A stretch of 64,000 nucleotides of DNA, from NCBI GenBank assembly GCA_001919865.1, contig MNIR01000052.1:1-64000 (forward strand), in the 5' to 3' direction. This document shows positions 24,682 to 52,170 of this stretch, piece after piece. The position numbers and the translations under genes were made by a program. Below the pieces are notes generated by a model. It was not told where the DNA came from and did not search any database. It was given only the letters and a program-made list of their open reading frames with translations. The number at the start of each line of letters is the position of its first letter. The stretch's first letter is position 1. This DNA comes from Gemmatimonadetes bacterium 13_1_20CM_4_69_16. GTDB taxonomy: Bacteria > Gemmatimonadota > Gemmatimonadetes > Gemmatimonadales > GWC2-71-9.

Positions 24682-26571
24682 ATGCTAGCTTGCGCGCCTG
24701 TGCGATGGCTCGGCGGAATGGTAACGCTGTGCGCCGTCGGGTGCGCGACCTCGCGCACCGGCGTCGCGCCCGCGCGCCCAACCACCGCTCCCGCGCGCGC
24801 GCCGTTGCAGCTCAGTATCGTGTACCCCGGCCCGACCGACGTCGTTCAGGCGCACGATTCGTGCTTCTTGTTCGGTGCGGTGCGCGGCGGAGCGGGGCCG
24901 GTGACCCTCTCGGTCAACGGGACACCGGTCCGCGTCTTCGCGAACGGCGCCTGGATCGCGTGGCTGCCACTGCCGGACGACACGCTCGCCGTGTTTCGTC
25001 TCGTGGCCCGAGCCGACGGCGATTCGGCGCTGCAGGACTGGACCGCGCGCATCGCGCCGCGCTTCCGCCCCCCCGCCGGGCGCGCGGCGTGGATCGACAC
25101 GACGAGCTTCGCGCCGGCGGGCACCGTCGCGCTACCGCTGGGCGAAGGCATTCGCCTCGCCGTCCGCGCCGCGCCCGGCGCGACGGTGTGGCTGCGGCTT
25201 CCCTGGGGCGCCGCCATCCCGTTCCTCCCCGACACGCTCCCGGGGGAGCCTGCCTGGGGCGTGCGCGCTTTCGCGACCGTCACGGCCGCCTACCGGCTTC
25301 CTCCGGCGGCCGATCGCTACGTCGCGTGGCTCCCGGCCGCGGCGCTGTGCCCCGATGGTAAGGCGGCGTGCGCGACGCTCGAAGTGATCGCGGGACGGGA
25401 CACGGCAACGGCGCGCTGGCCACTCTCGGTCGGCCTCGTGGACCTGACGTTCCCGAGCGTGGTCGTGCTCAACGACGATACCGCTCATGTGGGCACCACG
25501 GACAGTCTGACGCCGGGAAAGGCGGTGCCGTGGGGGACGTACAACTGGTTCTTCCCCACCGGAACCACCTCCGTGCTGTCGGGGCGCTGGAACGACCAAG
25601 TGCGTCTGCAGCTTTCACAGCACGCGGTCGCGTGGGTGAACGCGAGCGACGTGGTTCCACTCCCGGCGGGCACGCCGCCGGCGAGGGGCGTCGTCGGCTC
25701 GGTGCGCCTCGAGCCCGGGCCGGCTGCGGTGACCCTGCGCGTGCCGCTCCCGGGGAAGCTCCCGTTCCAGGTGACGGAGCAGGAGCGGAGCCTGACGCTG
25801 CGCGTCTACGGAGCGGGCTCGGACATCAACTGGATGCAGTACGGCCGGACCGACCCGCTCGTCACGCGCATGAGCTACGCGCAGCCCACGGCGGACGAGG
25901 TGACGATCACGCTCGACCTCGCGCGGCGCGTGTGGGGCTACCGCACGCGCTTCGATGGGCGGGACCTGCTGCTCGAGGTCCGCCGCCCCCCGCAGGTCGA
26001 TCCGGAGCGGCCCCTCAGGGGCCGCACCATCGTGCTCGATCCCGGCCATCCTCCGCTCGGCGCCAAGGGACCCACCGGTCTGTGGGAACCAGTGGCGACG
26101 CTCGCGGTCGCCTCTAAGGCCAAGACGCTGCTCGAGCAGGCGGGCGCGACGGCACTGCTGACGCGCACCGACTCGACGCCGCTCGAGCTGTTCGCCCGCA
26201 CCCATTTCGCCGAGCTGCATGACGCCGACGTGCTGGTCTCGATTCATGCCAACGCGCTCCCCGACGGCGTGAACCCCTTCGTGAACAACGGCACGAGTGT
26301 CTACTACTTCCACCCCCGCAGCGTCGCGCTCGCCCGCGCGCTCGACGTCGCGCTCGTCGCCGAGCTCGGGGTGCGGGACCTCGGGATGGGACGAGGGGAC
26401 TACGCGCTGGTGCGCCCGACCTGGATGCCCGCCGCGCTCACCGAGGGTCTGTTCATCATGCTGCCCGAACAGGAGGCTCTGCTACTGAGCGACGAGGGAC
26501 AGGCGCGCTATGCGCGGGGGGTGGTGCGGGGGATTGAGGCCTTTCTGCGAGAGCGAGCGCAGGAGCCGTGA
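24682..26571 (+). CDS. N-acetylmuramoyl-L-alanine amidase (Amidase_3), lipoprotein-like N-terminus
   Basis: RTIVLDPGHPPLG...LLTRTDSTPLELFARTHFAELHDADVLVSIHANA; start could be GTG 24700. Confidence 0.88.
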   Translation: MLACAPVRWLGGMVTLCAVGCATSRTGVAPARPTTAPARAPLQLSIVYPGPTDVVQAHDSCFLFGAVRGGAGPVTLSVNGTPVRVFANGAWIAWLPLPDDTLAVFRLVARADGDSALQDWTARIAPRFRPPAGRAAWIDTTSFAPAGTVALPLGEGIRLAVRAAPGATVWLRLPWGAAIPFLPDTLPGEPAWGVRAFATVTAAYRLPPAADRYVAWLPAAALCPDGKAACATLEVIAGRDTATARWPLSVGLVDLTFPSVVVLNDDTAHVGTTDSLTPGKAVPWGTYNWFFPTGTTSVLSGRWNDQVRLQLSQHAVAWVNASDVVPLPAGTPPARGVVGSVRLEPGPAAVTLRVPLPGKLPFQVTEQERSLTLRVYGAGSDINWMQYGRTDPLVTRMSYAQPTADEVTITLDLARRVWGYRTRFDGRDLLLEVRRPPQVDPERPLRGRTIVLDPGHPPLGAKGPTGLWEPVATLAVASKAKTLLEQAGATALLTRTDSTPLELFARTHFAELHDADVLVSIHANALPDGVNPFVNNGTSVYYFHPRSVALARALDVALVAELGVRDLGMGRGDYALVRPTWMPAALTEGLFIMLPEQEALLLSDEGQARYARGVVRGIEAFLRERAQEP

Positions 26572-26572
26572 G

Positions 26573-26672
26573 ATTGCGGATTGCGGATTTCGGATTGCGG
26601 ATTGGCACGACGTCCTCACGTCGTCGGCTCGATCTTTCACTGATATTCCGCAATCCGCAATCCGCAATCCGC
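26573..26672. repeat. Heptad-word inverted-repeat element C (ATTGCGG words)
   Basis: ATTGCGGATTGCGGATT at 26573-26589, perfect reverse complement at 26652-26668; inner hairpin ACGACGT-CCTC-ACGTCGT. Confidence 0.85.
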
Positions 26673-29289
26673 ATTCTCTTGCCGCTCCTGCTCGCCGTCC
26701 GCGCCGAGGCTCAGGCCGATCCGTCCGGCCCCTGGCGCACCCTCCACACCCCCCATTTCCGCATCCACTTTCGCCCGCTGTACCGTGACGTGGCGCAGCT
26801 CGCGTCTCGGGAGGCCGAGCGCGCCTACGGGCTGCTCGCGTCGGAGCTTCACCCGCCGCGCCAGGTGGTCGACCTGACGCTGGTGGACGACGTCGACGTC
26901 GCCAACGGCGCGACCATCGTGTTCCCGTCCGACCGCATCCTCGTCTTGCTCCCGCCGCCCGCGAACGAGCCCGGGCTGCAGCACTACGACAGCTGGCTTC
27001 GCTTGGTCACGACGCACGAGCTCACGCACATCTTCCACCTCGACCGCGTGCGCGGCTTCTGGGGTGGGTTACAGGCGGTGTTCGGCCGTGTCCCTGGACT
27101 GTTTCCGAACGCCTATCAGCCGAGCTGGGTAACGGAAGGGCTGGCGACCTACTACGAGTCGAAGTTCACCCACGGCGGGCGCGTGACGGGGAGTCTACAC
27201 ACGCAAGTGCTCGCGGCAGACCACGCCGCGGGCGCCTCGCGCTCCCCGTGGGACGCCGTGTTCTTCACGCGCTGGGCGGACGGGCTCGTGCCCTACGCCT
27301 ATGGTAGCCGCTTCTTTCATTACCTCGCGGGAGAGACAGGAGACTCCGTCGTGCCGCGGTTCGTCGAGGCGACATCCCGCCAGCTGATCCCCTCGCGGGT
27401 GGGCCGCCAGATCGGTCGCGTGGCGTCGGGACGGTCGCTGCAAGCTGAGTGGCCCAAGGGCACGCGGCCCCTGCCGCAGGCGGGCGCCGCCGCCGACGCC
27501 GCCGTCCGCGTGCTCGACCGAGCGCTCCGCACCGAGCCCGTCCCGCAGGTCTCGCCCGACGGCCGGGAGGTCGTCTACATCCGCGACGATGGCAAGGGGC
27601 CGAGCCAGCTGCGTGTGCTCGCTGCCGGTGGGGGGTTCCAAGTCCTGCGGGCGCACCGCGTGAACGGCGAGGTGAGCTACGACTGGCTCGGCGACACGCT
27701 CGTCGTCGCGCAGCTCGACTGGACGTCCCGCTGGCAGGTGCACAGCGACCTGTACCGCTGGTTCCCTGATGGTGAGTGGCGTCGCGTGACACACGCTGCA
27801 CGGCTCGTCACGCCCCGCGCGGGCGGGGGGCGCCTCTCCGTGATCGCGCTCATCCCGGGGGGGAATCGCCCGGTGCTGCCCGTGCCGGCCGGGCCCGGGG
27901 GTGCGACGTGGGGCGAGGTCGTGCCGTCTCCCGATGGACGCCGGGTGGCGGGCACGCGGAACGCGAACGGGCACTGGGCGCTGCTGCGCTGGCCCGCGGA
28001 CTCGCCTCAGGTGGCGACGCTGCTGCGCGCCACGGCCGGCGTGATTTCCGATCCGACGTGGACGCCCGCCGGCGACCTGCTGTTCGTCACCGATCCGACG
28101 GGATTCCCGCAGGTGTATCGCTGGCGCGACGCCGCGGGCGCCGAGCCGCTCACGGCCGAGCCGCTCGGCGCCCGCGCCCCCGCGGCGCTGCCGGACGGCA
28201 CGCTGTTGTACGCAACGCTCACGGCCGCGGGGTGGGAGCTGCGGCGCGGGCCGGGCGTCCCGACGGGGGCGCCCGTGCCCGCCGACCGGCCGGCTCCGTT
28301 CGACTCCGCGCCCCCCGTCACGACGCGCGAGACGGGCTACGCGGCGTGGCCTTCGTTGCGGCCCCACTTCTGGGTGCCGCTGTTTCTCGATGCCGGGCCG
28401 AGTGGGCGATTCTGGGGCGGCGTCACCGCGGGCACCGACGCCGTCGGCCGGTTCTCCTACTTCGCCACGGGCCTCATCGCGCCGCGGCCGTTTCGCGCGC
28501 TGGGGTCGTTCGCGGCGGTATGGAACGGCCTGGGAAACCCGACGTTCGACGTCGCGGCGGCGAGCACGTGGGAGGACGTGCGCGCCGCGATCATCCTGTC
28601 CGAGCAAACCCGGACTGCCGCCCTCGGCGTTTCGTTCGTCGCGCGGCGGTGGCGCAGCGTCGCGAGCCTGCGCTTGGCGGCGGAGTTCAAGGGCACGCGC
28701 TTCGCGACCATCCCCGACACCTCGCTCGCCGCCGTGTGCTCGGGTTGCGAGGGCCACGACCTCGTGGGGGGGTCGGTGACGCTCGGGGTGCGGTACCTCG
28801 TCTCCGCGCCGCTCGCCGTGTCGGCGCAGGACGGGTTCAGCTGGTCGGCCCTGTATCGGCGGCGCGCCGAAGTGAGCGGCGCCCGCTGGTCGAGCGAAGC
28901 GCGCACGCGCCTCGGGGTGTACCTCCACGTGCCGGGTATCGGCGGGTTCGCGCGCCACGTCCTCGCGCTACGGCTCGCCGCCGGGGCCACCGGCGGGCCG
29001 CTCGGTGAGTTGTTCAAGGCGGGTGGAGTGTCGTCGGGGAGCGTCGGCTTGACGGGCCGACAAGCTGTGGCTCAACGCGTTCAGCGACGTGGGCGACGCG
29101 TGGGGCGCCGGGGAGTCGCCGCGGTTCACGCGACTCCGCTCCGCGGGCGTCGAGCTCGCCGGCGATTTCACCATCAACTATGACCTCCCGGTGCAGCTCC
29201 GGGTCGGCGTCGCAGCGCCGCTCGCCGATCCCCCTTCCGGCGCGGCGCGACGCCCTCAGGTCTACCTCGCCTTCGCGTCGGATTTCTGA
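26574..29289 (+). CDS. Zn-metallopeptidase (HELTH) with beta-propeller and outer-membrane-like C-terminus; frameshift near 29050
   Basis: VTTHELTHIFHL...WVTEGLATYYES; continuation ADKLWLNAFSDVGDAWGAGE...PQVYLAFASDF lies in another frame. Confidence 0.7.
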
Positions 29290-38081: not shown

Positions 38082-38085
38082 CGTG

Positions 38086-38192
38086 TGAGACGTCAGAAGT
38101 GAGGGTTGCGGAGCCCCGGGAATGTGGTTAGCATATTAACCGTCAACATGTTAACTATTTCCGAGGTCTGACGTCTGATGTCTGACGTCTCA
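38086..38192. repeat. Heptad-word inverted-repeat element D (GACGTCA words)
   Basis: TGAGACGTCAGA 38086-38097 and perfect reverse complement TCTGACGTCTCA 38181-38192. Confidence 0.8.
38127..38155. promoter_or_regulatory. Tandem operator-like palindromes upstream of marR gene
   Basis: GTTAGCATATTAAC (38127-38140) and GTCAACATGTTAAC (38142-38155), consensus GTTAACATGTTAAC, 15-bp phasing. Confidence 0.55.
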
Positions 38193-50201: not shown

Positions 50202-50235
50202 GGTCCTGCGTTCTCCGTCCTCCGTGGTCCGTCCC
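50202..50235. repeat. Single-arm heptad array E (GGACGGA words on minus strand)
   Basis: Reverse complement reads GGACGGA CCACGGA GGACGGA GAACGCA GGACC. Confidence 0.6.
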
Positions 50236-50290: not shown

Positions 50291-50390
50291 GAGCCCCAGG
50301 TCCGTAGGTCGTCCGCTCGTGAACCGCGTCAGGCCCCCGCAGGGAGCAGCGCTAAACGGGTCGAGACTTCGCTGCGTCAACCTGGGGCAT
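50291..50390 (+). ncRNA. ffs: Bacterial small signal recognition particle RNA (4.5S-like)
   Basis: GUGAACC-GCGUCAGG-CCCCCGCAGGG-AGCAGCG-CUAAACGG matches domain IV; terminal stem GCCCCAGGT (50293-50301)/ACCTGGGGC (50380-50388); adjacent to dnaX. Confidence 0.85.
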
Positions 50391-50398
50391 TCCACATG

Positions 50399-50488
50399 CA
50401 AACGCGAAAGTGGGAACGCGGAAGTCGGAACGCGCGGCGACGCCCGTCCGCCTGTTCCGCGTTCCCACTTCCGCGTTCCGCGTTTGCA
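50399..50488. repeat. Heptad-word inverted-repeat element B (AACGCGG words)
   Basis: AAGTGGGAACGCGGAA at 50408-50423 with perfect reverse complement at 50455-50470, 31-nt loop. Confidence 0.85.
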
Positions 50489-50502
50489 GTAGATTCCTTC
50501 CC

Positions 50503-52170
50503 ATGATCGCCCTCGCCCGCAAGTACCGCCCTAAGCGCTTTGCCGACCTGATCGTGCAGACGCACGTGGCCGCGGCGCTGCGGGGTGCCGTGGCGAGTGG
50601 CCGCGTCGCCCATGGCTATCTGTTCGCGGGACCCCGTGGCGTGGGCAAGACCACCGCGGCGCGCGTGCTGGCGATGGCGTTGAACTGTGAGCGGCGCGAG
50701 CCGTCGGGCGAGCCGTGCGGCGTGTGCGAGTCGTGCGTGCGGATCTGGACGGGCGCGGCGAACCTGGACGTGGTCGAGCTCGATGCCGCGTCGAATCGCG
50801 GCGTGGACGACGCGCGCGATTTGCGCGAGCGCGCGATGTACGCCGCGTCGGCGGAGGGACGCTACAAGGTCTACATCGTGGACGAGGCGCACATGCTCAC
50901 CCGCGAGGCGTGGAACGCCTTGCTCAAGATCCTGGAAGAGCCGCCGTCGCGGGTCGTGTTCGTGTTCGCCACCACGGAGCCGCAGAAGATCGCGCAGAGC
51001 GCCGCACCCATCCTCTCGCGGCTCCAACGGTTCGACTTTCGGCGCATCGGTCCGCACGCCATCACCGACCGACTGAAGCAGGTCCTCGCCGCCGAGGATC
51101 TGGCGGCGGACGACGACGCCGTACAGCTCATCGCCAAGAGCGCCGACGGCGGCATGCGGGATGGCCTGTCCATCCTCGACCAGGTGCTCTCGTTCGGGGA
51201 GGGGCCCGTGACCGCGCAGCGCGTGCGCGAGGTGCTCGGGCTCATCCCGGAAGACGTGTACGGCGAGCTGCTCCGCCTCGTCGCCGAGCGGGACGCGAAG
51301 GCCGTATTCCCGGTGGTGGACCGGCTGGTGGACGCGGGTGCCGACCTGGGCGAGTTCGTCGCCGGAGCGGGCGAGACGCTGCGGGCCGTCCTGCTGGTCG
51401 GCCTGGGAGGCAAGCCCGAGGGTACCACGGAGGGGATGGTGGCGCTGATCGAACGGTACGCCTCCCTCCTCCCCGCTCCCGACGTGGTCCGCCTGCTCGC
51501 GGTGCTGTCGGAGATGGAGACGCAGCTGCGCACCAGCGGCAACATGCGACTGACGGTCGAGCTCCTGTTGTTGCGCTGGGCGATGATGGGTCGGACGGTC
51601 GAACTCGAGACGGTCATTCGCGCGCTGAATACAGAGCCGGGGAAAAAGCCGGGGACGGGGGAAATGCTGGGGAAGGGTGATGCGCCGGCCGTCCTCCGGG
51701 ATGCGGCGACCGGCTCGCCCGCGCCCCTTCCCCCTTCCCCGGCCGTTCCACCGGCGGTGCCCCCTCCTGAGAAAGGCCCGTTAACCGTCGATCGGCTGCG
51801 TGATCTCTGGCCGCGCATCATCGAAGACGCGCGCGCCAAGAGTCCCATGCTGGGCGCGCTGCTGCAGGTGACCGAGATCGCGGGTCTCGACGGTTCGACC
51901 GTTTCTGTGCGCCTGCTCGACACCAATCCGGTGCACGCCGAAGGCATCGAGCGCCAGCGGGACGCGCTCGCGCTACTGGTCGGGCGTTACGTCACGGCGC
52001 CGGTTCGCATCAAGCTACAGGCAGCGGCCAGCGGGGAGCGGGCCCCCCCCCAGCGCTCGTCCCGCATGACGGAGGAGGGCGCGCGCGCCGACCGACTCAA
52101 GGCGTTGCGGGCGAAGGACCCCAGCCTCAACGCCGCCATCGACGCGCTGGATCTGGAGTTGCTGGAGTAG
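50503..52170 (+). CDS. dnaX: DNA polymerase III subunit gamma/tau
   Basis: ARKYRPKRFADLIVQTHV...HGYLFAGPRGVGKTTAARVLA...YIVDEAHMLTREAWNALLKILEEPP. Confidence 0.96.
   Translation: MIALARKYRPKRFADLIVQTHVAAALRGAVASGRVAHGYLFAGPRGVGKTTAARVLAMALNCERREPSGEPCGVCESCVRIWTGAANLDVVELDAASNRGVDDARDLRERAMYAASAEGRYKVYIVDEAHMLTREAWNALLKILEEPPSRVVFVFATTEPQKIAQSAAPILSRLQRFDFRRIGPHAITDRLKQVLAAEDLAADDDAVQLIAKSADGGMRDGLSILDQVLSFGEGPVTAQRVREVLGLIPEDVYGELLRLVAERDAKAVFPVVDRLVDAGADLGEFVAGAGETLRAVLLVGLGGKPEGTTEGMVALIERYASLLPAPDVVRLLAVLSEMETQLRTSGNMRLTVELLLLRWAMMGRTVELETVIRALNTEPGKKPGTGEMLGKGDAPAVLRDAATGSPAPLPPSPAVPPAVPPPEKGPLTVDRLRDLWPRIIEDARAKSPMLGALLQVTEIAGLDGSTVSVRLLDTNPVHAEGIERQRDALALLVGRYVTAPVRIKLQAAASGERAPPQRSSRMTEEGARADRLKALRAKDPSLNAAIDALDLELLE

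Follow-up and report, generated by a model that had tools for sequence, protein, structure and literature searches.

Short heptamer repeats have been noticed in bacterial genomes since the 1990s, and to our knowledge there is no agreed origin or function for them. In Xanthomonas, GGGAATC heptamers show a preference for four units and form 70 to 75 facing pairs and potential stem-loops, as set out in the portions considered here of Rehm et al. (2015, PMC4692102). The same portions place these repeats a short way after the 5' ORF, in most cases with co-directional genes on either side, and describe two species in which the gene neighbours agree but the sequence varies (PMC4692102). In the Nostoc trnL (tRNALeu UAA) intron, the P6b stem consists of 7-nt repeats on both sides, and at this one fixed site the repeat class (Class I or II) has been replaced repeatedly between lineages with the fold kept, according to the relevant parts of Kaasalainen et al. 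(2015, PMC4476775). Other dispersed repeats share single traits with these systems, as far as the parts of the reports considered here describe them: the heptanucleotide STRR sequences of filamentous cyanobacteria (Calothrix, Anabaena, Nostoc) are short intergenic tandem heptamers, REPINs and REP sequences (PMC3116915; PMC3733652) are short extragenic palindromic pairs with a spacer that form hairpins, and the TAACTGA repeats of Beggiatoaceae (PMC4679880) are intergenic heptamers in many copies.

We analyzed a 64,000-nt stretch (the window) of a 2.82-Mb Gemmatimonadota draft MAG (G000; its congeners are G001 to G004), in which an inverted pair of heptamer arrays, element B, lies upstream of dnaX. 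On the portions of the two main accounts considered here, element B and the heptamer elements of Xanthomonas and Nostoc are of the same kind. Its family resembles the Xanthomonas repeats in having a 7-nt period, usually four units, facing arrays and an intergenic position just after the upstream ORF, but it uses other words and belongs to another phylum. The G-rich Xanthomonas unit has been studied as a G-quadruplex (PMC4692102), whereas the units here differ from the G4-forming GGGAATC/GGGGAYT, the main words AACGCGG and ATTGCGG having only GG runs and GGGGAAG-type words occurring at other sites. Unlike Nostoc P6b, a single locus inside a group I intron with two classes, the elements occupy dozens of dispersed sites with many words. 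STRR sequences differ in that Anabaena has few paired inverted arrays (PMC4692102), REP sequences in being a fixed sequence with a GTAG- or CGTC-type tag (PMC3733652), whereas the arms here change word, and the Beggiatoaceae repeats in being direct repeats with only one indirect repeat and no inverted arms (PMC4679880), again within the parts of those sources considered. In the portions of PMC4692102 that we compared, we found neither genome-specific replacement of the word in both arms, nor cores that are kept or inverted, nor sites in coding linkers. Within the open literature, then, word identity across the genome and the coordinated replacement of words at many orthologous sites, one of them in a coding linker, exceed the accounts given in those parts of PMC4692102 and PMC4476775.

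Element B, its dnaX neighborhood and its family

Element B (50397-50488) comprises about four to five units of AACGCGG/AAGTSGG, a core of about 20 nt and then the reverse-complement array. TRF together with inverted-repeat and period scans placed the left arm at 50401..50434 on the forward strand (tandem heptamers AACGCGA/AAGTGGG/AACGCGG/AAGTCGG/AACGCG), the core, or loop between the arms, at 50435..50453 (forward strand) and the right arm, a reverse-complement heptamer array, at 50454..50484 (reverse strand); the unit AAGTGGG is common to both arms. The original prediction of a 16-bp perfect inverted repeat was confirmed (AAGTGGGAACGCGGAA, 50408-50423 and 50455-50470, 31 nt between), and the arms proved longer than it had seen, at 41 nt with 73% complementarity (50397-50437 and 50448-50488). 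The near-identical geometry that it noted in element A (2299-2376), which carries AACGCGG words between two co-directional genes, is real, with a 16-bp perfect repeat and 32 nt between its halves. With up to 3 mismatches allowed, the 16-mer of B occurs 7 times against 0.42 expected, a number reached by 0 of 100 shuffles, and the predicted RNA fold of B has an energy of -58.7 kcal/mol (z = -7.0). The window holds 3 paired inverted arrays of period 7 versus 0 in 10 Markov-shuffled windows, and none of period 5, 6, 8, 9, 10, or 11. The bare 7-mer AACGCGG occurs there 22 times versus 20 expected; in the window, therefore, enrichment is confined to the tandem, inverted arrangement and does not extend to the bare word.

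The neighbors of B are also as predicted. Directly upstream lies the SRP RNA gene (50293..50391, forward strand; Rfam RF00169, bacterial small SRP RNA, 41.9 bits against a cut-off of 40), and about 14 nt downstream is the ATG of dnaX (50503..52170, forward strand), which encodes the DNA polymerase III tau/gamma subunit. By-eye comparison of the congeners revealed a -10-like TAGATT 7 nt before this ATG (50490..50495, forward strand), conserved in most of them with or without the element; a sigma-70 consensus scan at B and dnaX found no promoter. With the SRP RNA gene on one side and the conserved TAGATT on the other, B is probably not an mRNA leader. As read from the sequence, B probably lies upstream of the -10 of the dnaX promoter, and the dnaX transcript may be leaderless. 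At Rfam gathering thresholds, the SRP RNA and a tRNA were the only matches, with no known RNA family at B, and no intrinsic terminator (a G+C hairpin with a T-run after it) was found at B, which is followed by TTTGCAGTAGATT. An ordinary dnaX leader, conserved in sister genomes and lacking other copies, was ruled out, as G003 has an empty site and the genome holds about 45 other copies. Just upstream of the SRP RNA gene is a single heptamer-like array, GTTCTCC GTCCTCC GTGGTCC (50203-50234), which is degenerate in the congeners. In two relatives (L118 of G034 and L123 of G014), no SRP RNA was seen by eye upstream of dnaX, unlike in most relatives, possibly owing to a move of the gene.

Element B belongs to a family of inverted heptamer-array elements dispersed through the genome, each with about four tandem 7-nt units, a core of 20 to 60 nt and about four reverse-complement units. 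Elements were sampled via pattern searches and fetched stretches. A generic pattern of three CGGA-type heptamers matched G000 at 95 positions versus 0 for the reversed control, and these matches collapse to about 43 to 46 elements with two main word families, AACGCGG (variants AAGTCGG, AAGGCGG, and AAGTGGG) and ATTGCGG (ATTTCGG and ATTGTGG). Exactly four units were present in 128 of 192 arms from G000, G001, and G004 together, a table from which unit counts alone were used, with ATTGCGG arms partly read in a shifted frame. Both arms had the same word family in 81 of 82 scorable elements, the remaining one being an unclassified variant. In the window, the family also includes element A and element C (26569-26678), the latter with ATTGCGG words and present in all five congeners in three different words. 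Two further inverted arrays are a weak one of TGACGTC-type words (38085-38192), with a right arm that runs up to the ATG of the following ORF, and one in the coding linker of dnaX (51647-51743), with GGGGAAG-type arms round a retained core coding for P(V/A)LRDA. Elsewhere in G000 (C27, L061:3802-4289), left and right ATTGCGG arms stand about 350 nt apart, far beyond the usual distance. Lone GGGGAAG arrays of three to four units with no inverted partner nearby occur in G034 (L384-L388) and G004 (L389-L390), some apparently in coding sequence, so pairing is not obligatory.

Positions relative to genes were determined with a home-made codon-model gene caller. The distance from the upstream stop codon was 26 nt or less in 59 of 62 cases (median, 9 nt), and many elements begin directly after TGA. 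Among 67 elements lying between two genes, the pairs were co-directional in 58 cases, divergent in 7, and convergent in 2, a mix close to that of all neighboring gene pairs in the window (49/5/5), indicating no concentration of the elements at places that need a terminator. Called ORFs contain another 31 elements; the cases examined are often near the gene end, with the arm read in frame.

Words and cores at orthologous sites

The junction orthologous to an element of G000 was also occupied at 23 sites, giving 35 comparisons with G001 to G004, of which 17 had the same word and 18 a different word in both arms; this tally was made by hand with the majority word used for mixed elements, and it does not give unbiased rates, as G002 and G003 loci were partly fetched via an AACGCGG search and absences were unsampled. 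By genome, AACGCGG made up 29 of 30 elements in G004 and ATTGCGG 16 of 19 in G001, and G000 had 20 ATTGCGG and 14 AACGCGG elements. On these counts, word identity goes with the genome and not with the site. Mixed-word elements are rare, and no word-conversion intermediate was seen among the elements compared.

Site C is occupied at the same junction in five of five species, with ATTGCGG in G000, G001, and G003, AATGCGG in G002, and AACGCGG in G004. In a pairing test at this site, 6 base pairs and 10 cells had changed on both sides; the cell count was reached by 0 of 500 shuffles, and slid registers gave at most 2. Judged from these alignments, the arms change word together. The paired changes alone do not demonstrate selection on an RNA fold, since copying from arm to arm gives the same result. 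Where sister species share a junction and its hairpin architecture but differ in the word of every unit of both arms, the site, which would be inherited, can be separated from the sequence, which would be replaced.

At site B, the word is ATTGCGG in G001, AATGCGG in G002, G022, G066, and G067, and AACGCGG in G000, G004, and G075, and the site is empty in G003 and G076. The cores of G002, G066, and G067 match by eye across three genera, implying that site B is old. At site A, occupied in 6 of the 10 genomes compared, the word is AACGCGG in G000, ATTGCGG in G001 and G022, and AATGCGG in G066; G034 has a TGGGGAG pair, G075 a short pair with AGGTGTC and G004 a GGGGAAG-like stretch on one side only, and in G028 the downstream gene is a different one; in G002 and G003 the site is empty, and the junction is 7 to 12 nt long. 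The single array at site 6 has ATTGCGG/AATGCGG in G000 and G001, AATGCGG in G002, and GGGGAAG in G034 (by eye). By these comparisons, elements are gained or lost at gene junctions. At the empty A and B sites, whose gaps are very divergent, no clear target-site duplication, as expected of a classical MITE or IS-derived element, was seen by eye.

Cores from non-orthologous elements resemble one another more than shuffled cores do and thus form a loose family. At site 19, the core is inverted in place in G001 (reverse score 50 versus 16 forward; 0 of 171 unrelated pairs as high), and at site 34 it is inverted in G004, where the word also differs (39 versus 18; 1 of 171 unrelated pairs as high). 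At site C, G004 has a new word round a retained core, a match of modest significance (7 of 171 unrelated pairs of long cores score as high). At site B, the G000 core is unrelated to those of G002 and G066, so replacement of the whole element or re-insertion is possible there. As aligned here, a core can be retained, exchanged for another, or flipped in place.

In the dnaX linker, the P(V/A)LRDA-coding core is kept and the inverted arms (words read by eye) differ by lineage: GGGGAAG in G000, G001, G003, G004, G034, G078, and G028, GGGATGC in G075, GGGGACT in G022, GGGGGAC in G068, and 8-nt words in G002 and G014. Most of these word types are also abundant elsewhere in the genome concerned, namely GGGGAAG- in G004, G034, and G002, GGGGACT- in G022, GGGGACG- in G068, and octamers in G014 and G035; the linker octamer of G002 is not common genome-wide. 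Arrays inside coding linkers such as that of dnaX change protein sequence by a route other than point mutation.

How the elements may arise

The original prediction held that B is a mobile or templated element rather than a product of chance, and it looked to sister genomes for empty sites at dnaX, which G003 supplied. With about 45 copies and empty sites, the family is indeed beyond chance, and the prediction is largely supported; it is refined in that the shared geometry has no single fixed sequence behind it. Loops vary from one element to the next and the arm word changes between species at the same site, so "templated" fits better than a classical mobile element of fixed sequence. Word change in both stacks suggests that something copies or rewrites the stacks across the genome, and copying or rewriting between arrays within a genome is the overall explanation towards which we lean. 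The mechanism that we infer for word replacement is that resident elements are copied to give new ones and that DNA synthesis templated by a foreign or opposite array rewrites the arms, the possible routes being template switching between facing arms, ectopic gene conversion or copying between elements, and slippage inside an array. Such rewriting would homogenize words across the genome and keep each hairpin paired. A word set by the genome, matched arms, cores kept or flipped, and old sites with young words all fit copying between arrays. The element RNA would form a very stable predicted hairpin just after a stop codon or, at B, in the gap that separates the SRP RNA gene from the dnaX promoter region; it may be tolerated at junctions and could serve as an insulating hairpin or one at the mRNA 3' end.

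The main rival to copying is loss and re-insertion at limited tolerated junctions, and both may operate. Gain and loss would then be frequent, and few tolerant places (gaps after stop codons, disordered linkers) would be refilled independently by the active word of each genome. Empty A and B sites with gaps of 7 to 26 nt, unrelated cores at several sites with different words, the existence of single arrays, and flanking-gene orientations equal to those of all gene pairs accord with this reading. It is nevertheless rather unlikely, as roughly 50 to 150 elements (partly estimated) are spread over some thousands of junctions and yet the 7- to 12-nt A junction was filled in 6 of 10 genomes and site C in all five. 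Nor does it readily account for a dnaX linker core kept between same-word inverted arms in lineages with different words, or for the inverted core homology at site 34, matched by only 1 of 171 unrelated pairs.

A bolder proposal, which we put forward as doubtful, is that a dedicated trans-acting process, common to several phyla, writes genome-specific 7-nt words, usually four units at a time and as facing pairs, into junctions and disordered coding linkers and rewrites the slots when the word of the genome changes. The slot would then be inherited and the text replaced. No transposase or reverse transcriptase linked to the elements was found in searches for the families Y1_Tnp and RVT_1. An element templated by a reverse transcriptase (DGR, retron, or telomerase-like) was rejected, RVT_1 being present in only 1 of 14 element-rich genomes.

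REPINs and REP sequences are associated with a RAYT transposase. A REPIN-like element moved by such a REP-associated Y1 transposase would have two inverted arms and a spacer forming a hairpin, and an extragenic position next to stop codons, as seen here, and Y1_Tnp genes are present in all five congeners. However, no heptamer element lies within about 1.5 kb of the one RAYT locus taken from each of G000 to G004, RAYT is also found in element-poor genomes, and the arms are heptamer arrays of changing word instead of a fixed REP, which makes this origin quite improbable.

We give equally little credence to selected RNA hairpins (a terminator, an mRNA stabilizer, or an RNase III site) kept by compensatory point mutations. 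Strong predicted folding, paired changes, and a position just after stop codons speak for such selection, but point compensation leaves unexplained both the same new word at nearly all sites of one genome and the tandem state in which the words stay. At B there is neither a T-run nor a terminator match, enrichment between convergent genes is absent (2 of 67), and sites are empty in close relatives. Least credible of all are ordinary slippage-made tandem repeats that face each other by chance: heptameric simple repeats are over-represented in many bacteria, according to the parts of PMC4692102 considered here, but slippage alone makes no inverted partners, and period-7 pairs number 3 versus 0 in shuffled sequence for the window and 15 versus 0 for the dnaX loci.

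Distribution across bacteria

Among 200 Gemmatimonadota genomes, CGGA-word arrays reach a high density in some genera of this bacterial family and in scattered genera elsewhere, with reversed controls near zero in nearly all 200. Many of the array-sharing records are MAGs titled Gemmatimonadetes, and the exact AACGCGG array is also found in records titled Verrucomicrobia, Planctomycetes (Gemmata, Limnoglobus), Chloroflexi, Acidobacteria, Bacteroidetes, and others. In 269 kb of non-Gemmatimonadota loci, inverted period-7 elements numbered 21, with a wide range of words, versus 0 in the shuffled control; this density is biased, as the loci were picked by one heptamer array, but many of the 21 elements use other words. 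Loci from Verrucomicrobia, Planctomycetes, Chloroflexi, and Bacteroidetes hold such inverted arrays with other words. The same loci held 0, 0, 1, 2, and 0 inverted arrays at periods 5, 6, 8, 9, and 10, respectively. Across 124 kb of dnaX loci from 33 genomes, none were found at periods 5, 6, 9, 10, or 11 or in the shuffled control, and there were 15 inverted arrays of period 7 and 3 of period 8. Inverted arrays of the 8-nt unit GGTCGGAC (L398-L401, from G035 and G014) are abundant in both genomes and have the same architecture with a period of 8.
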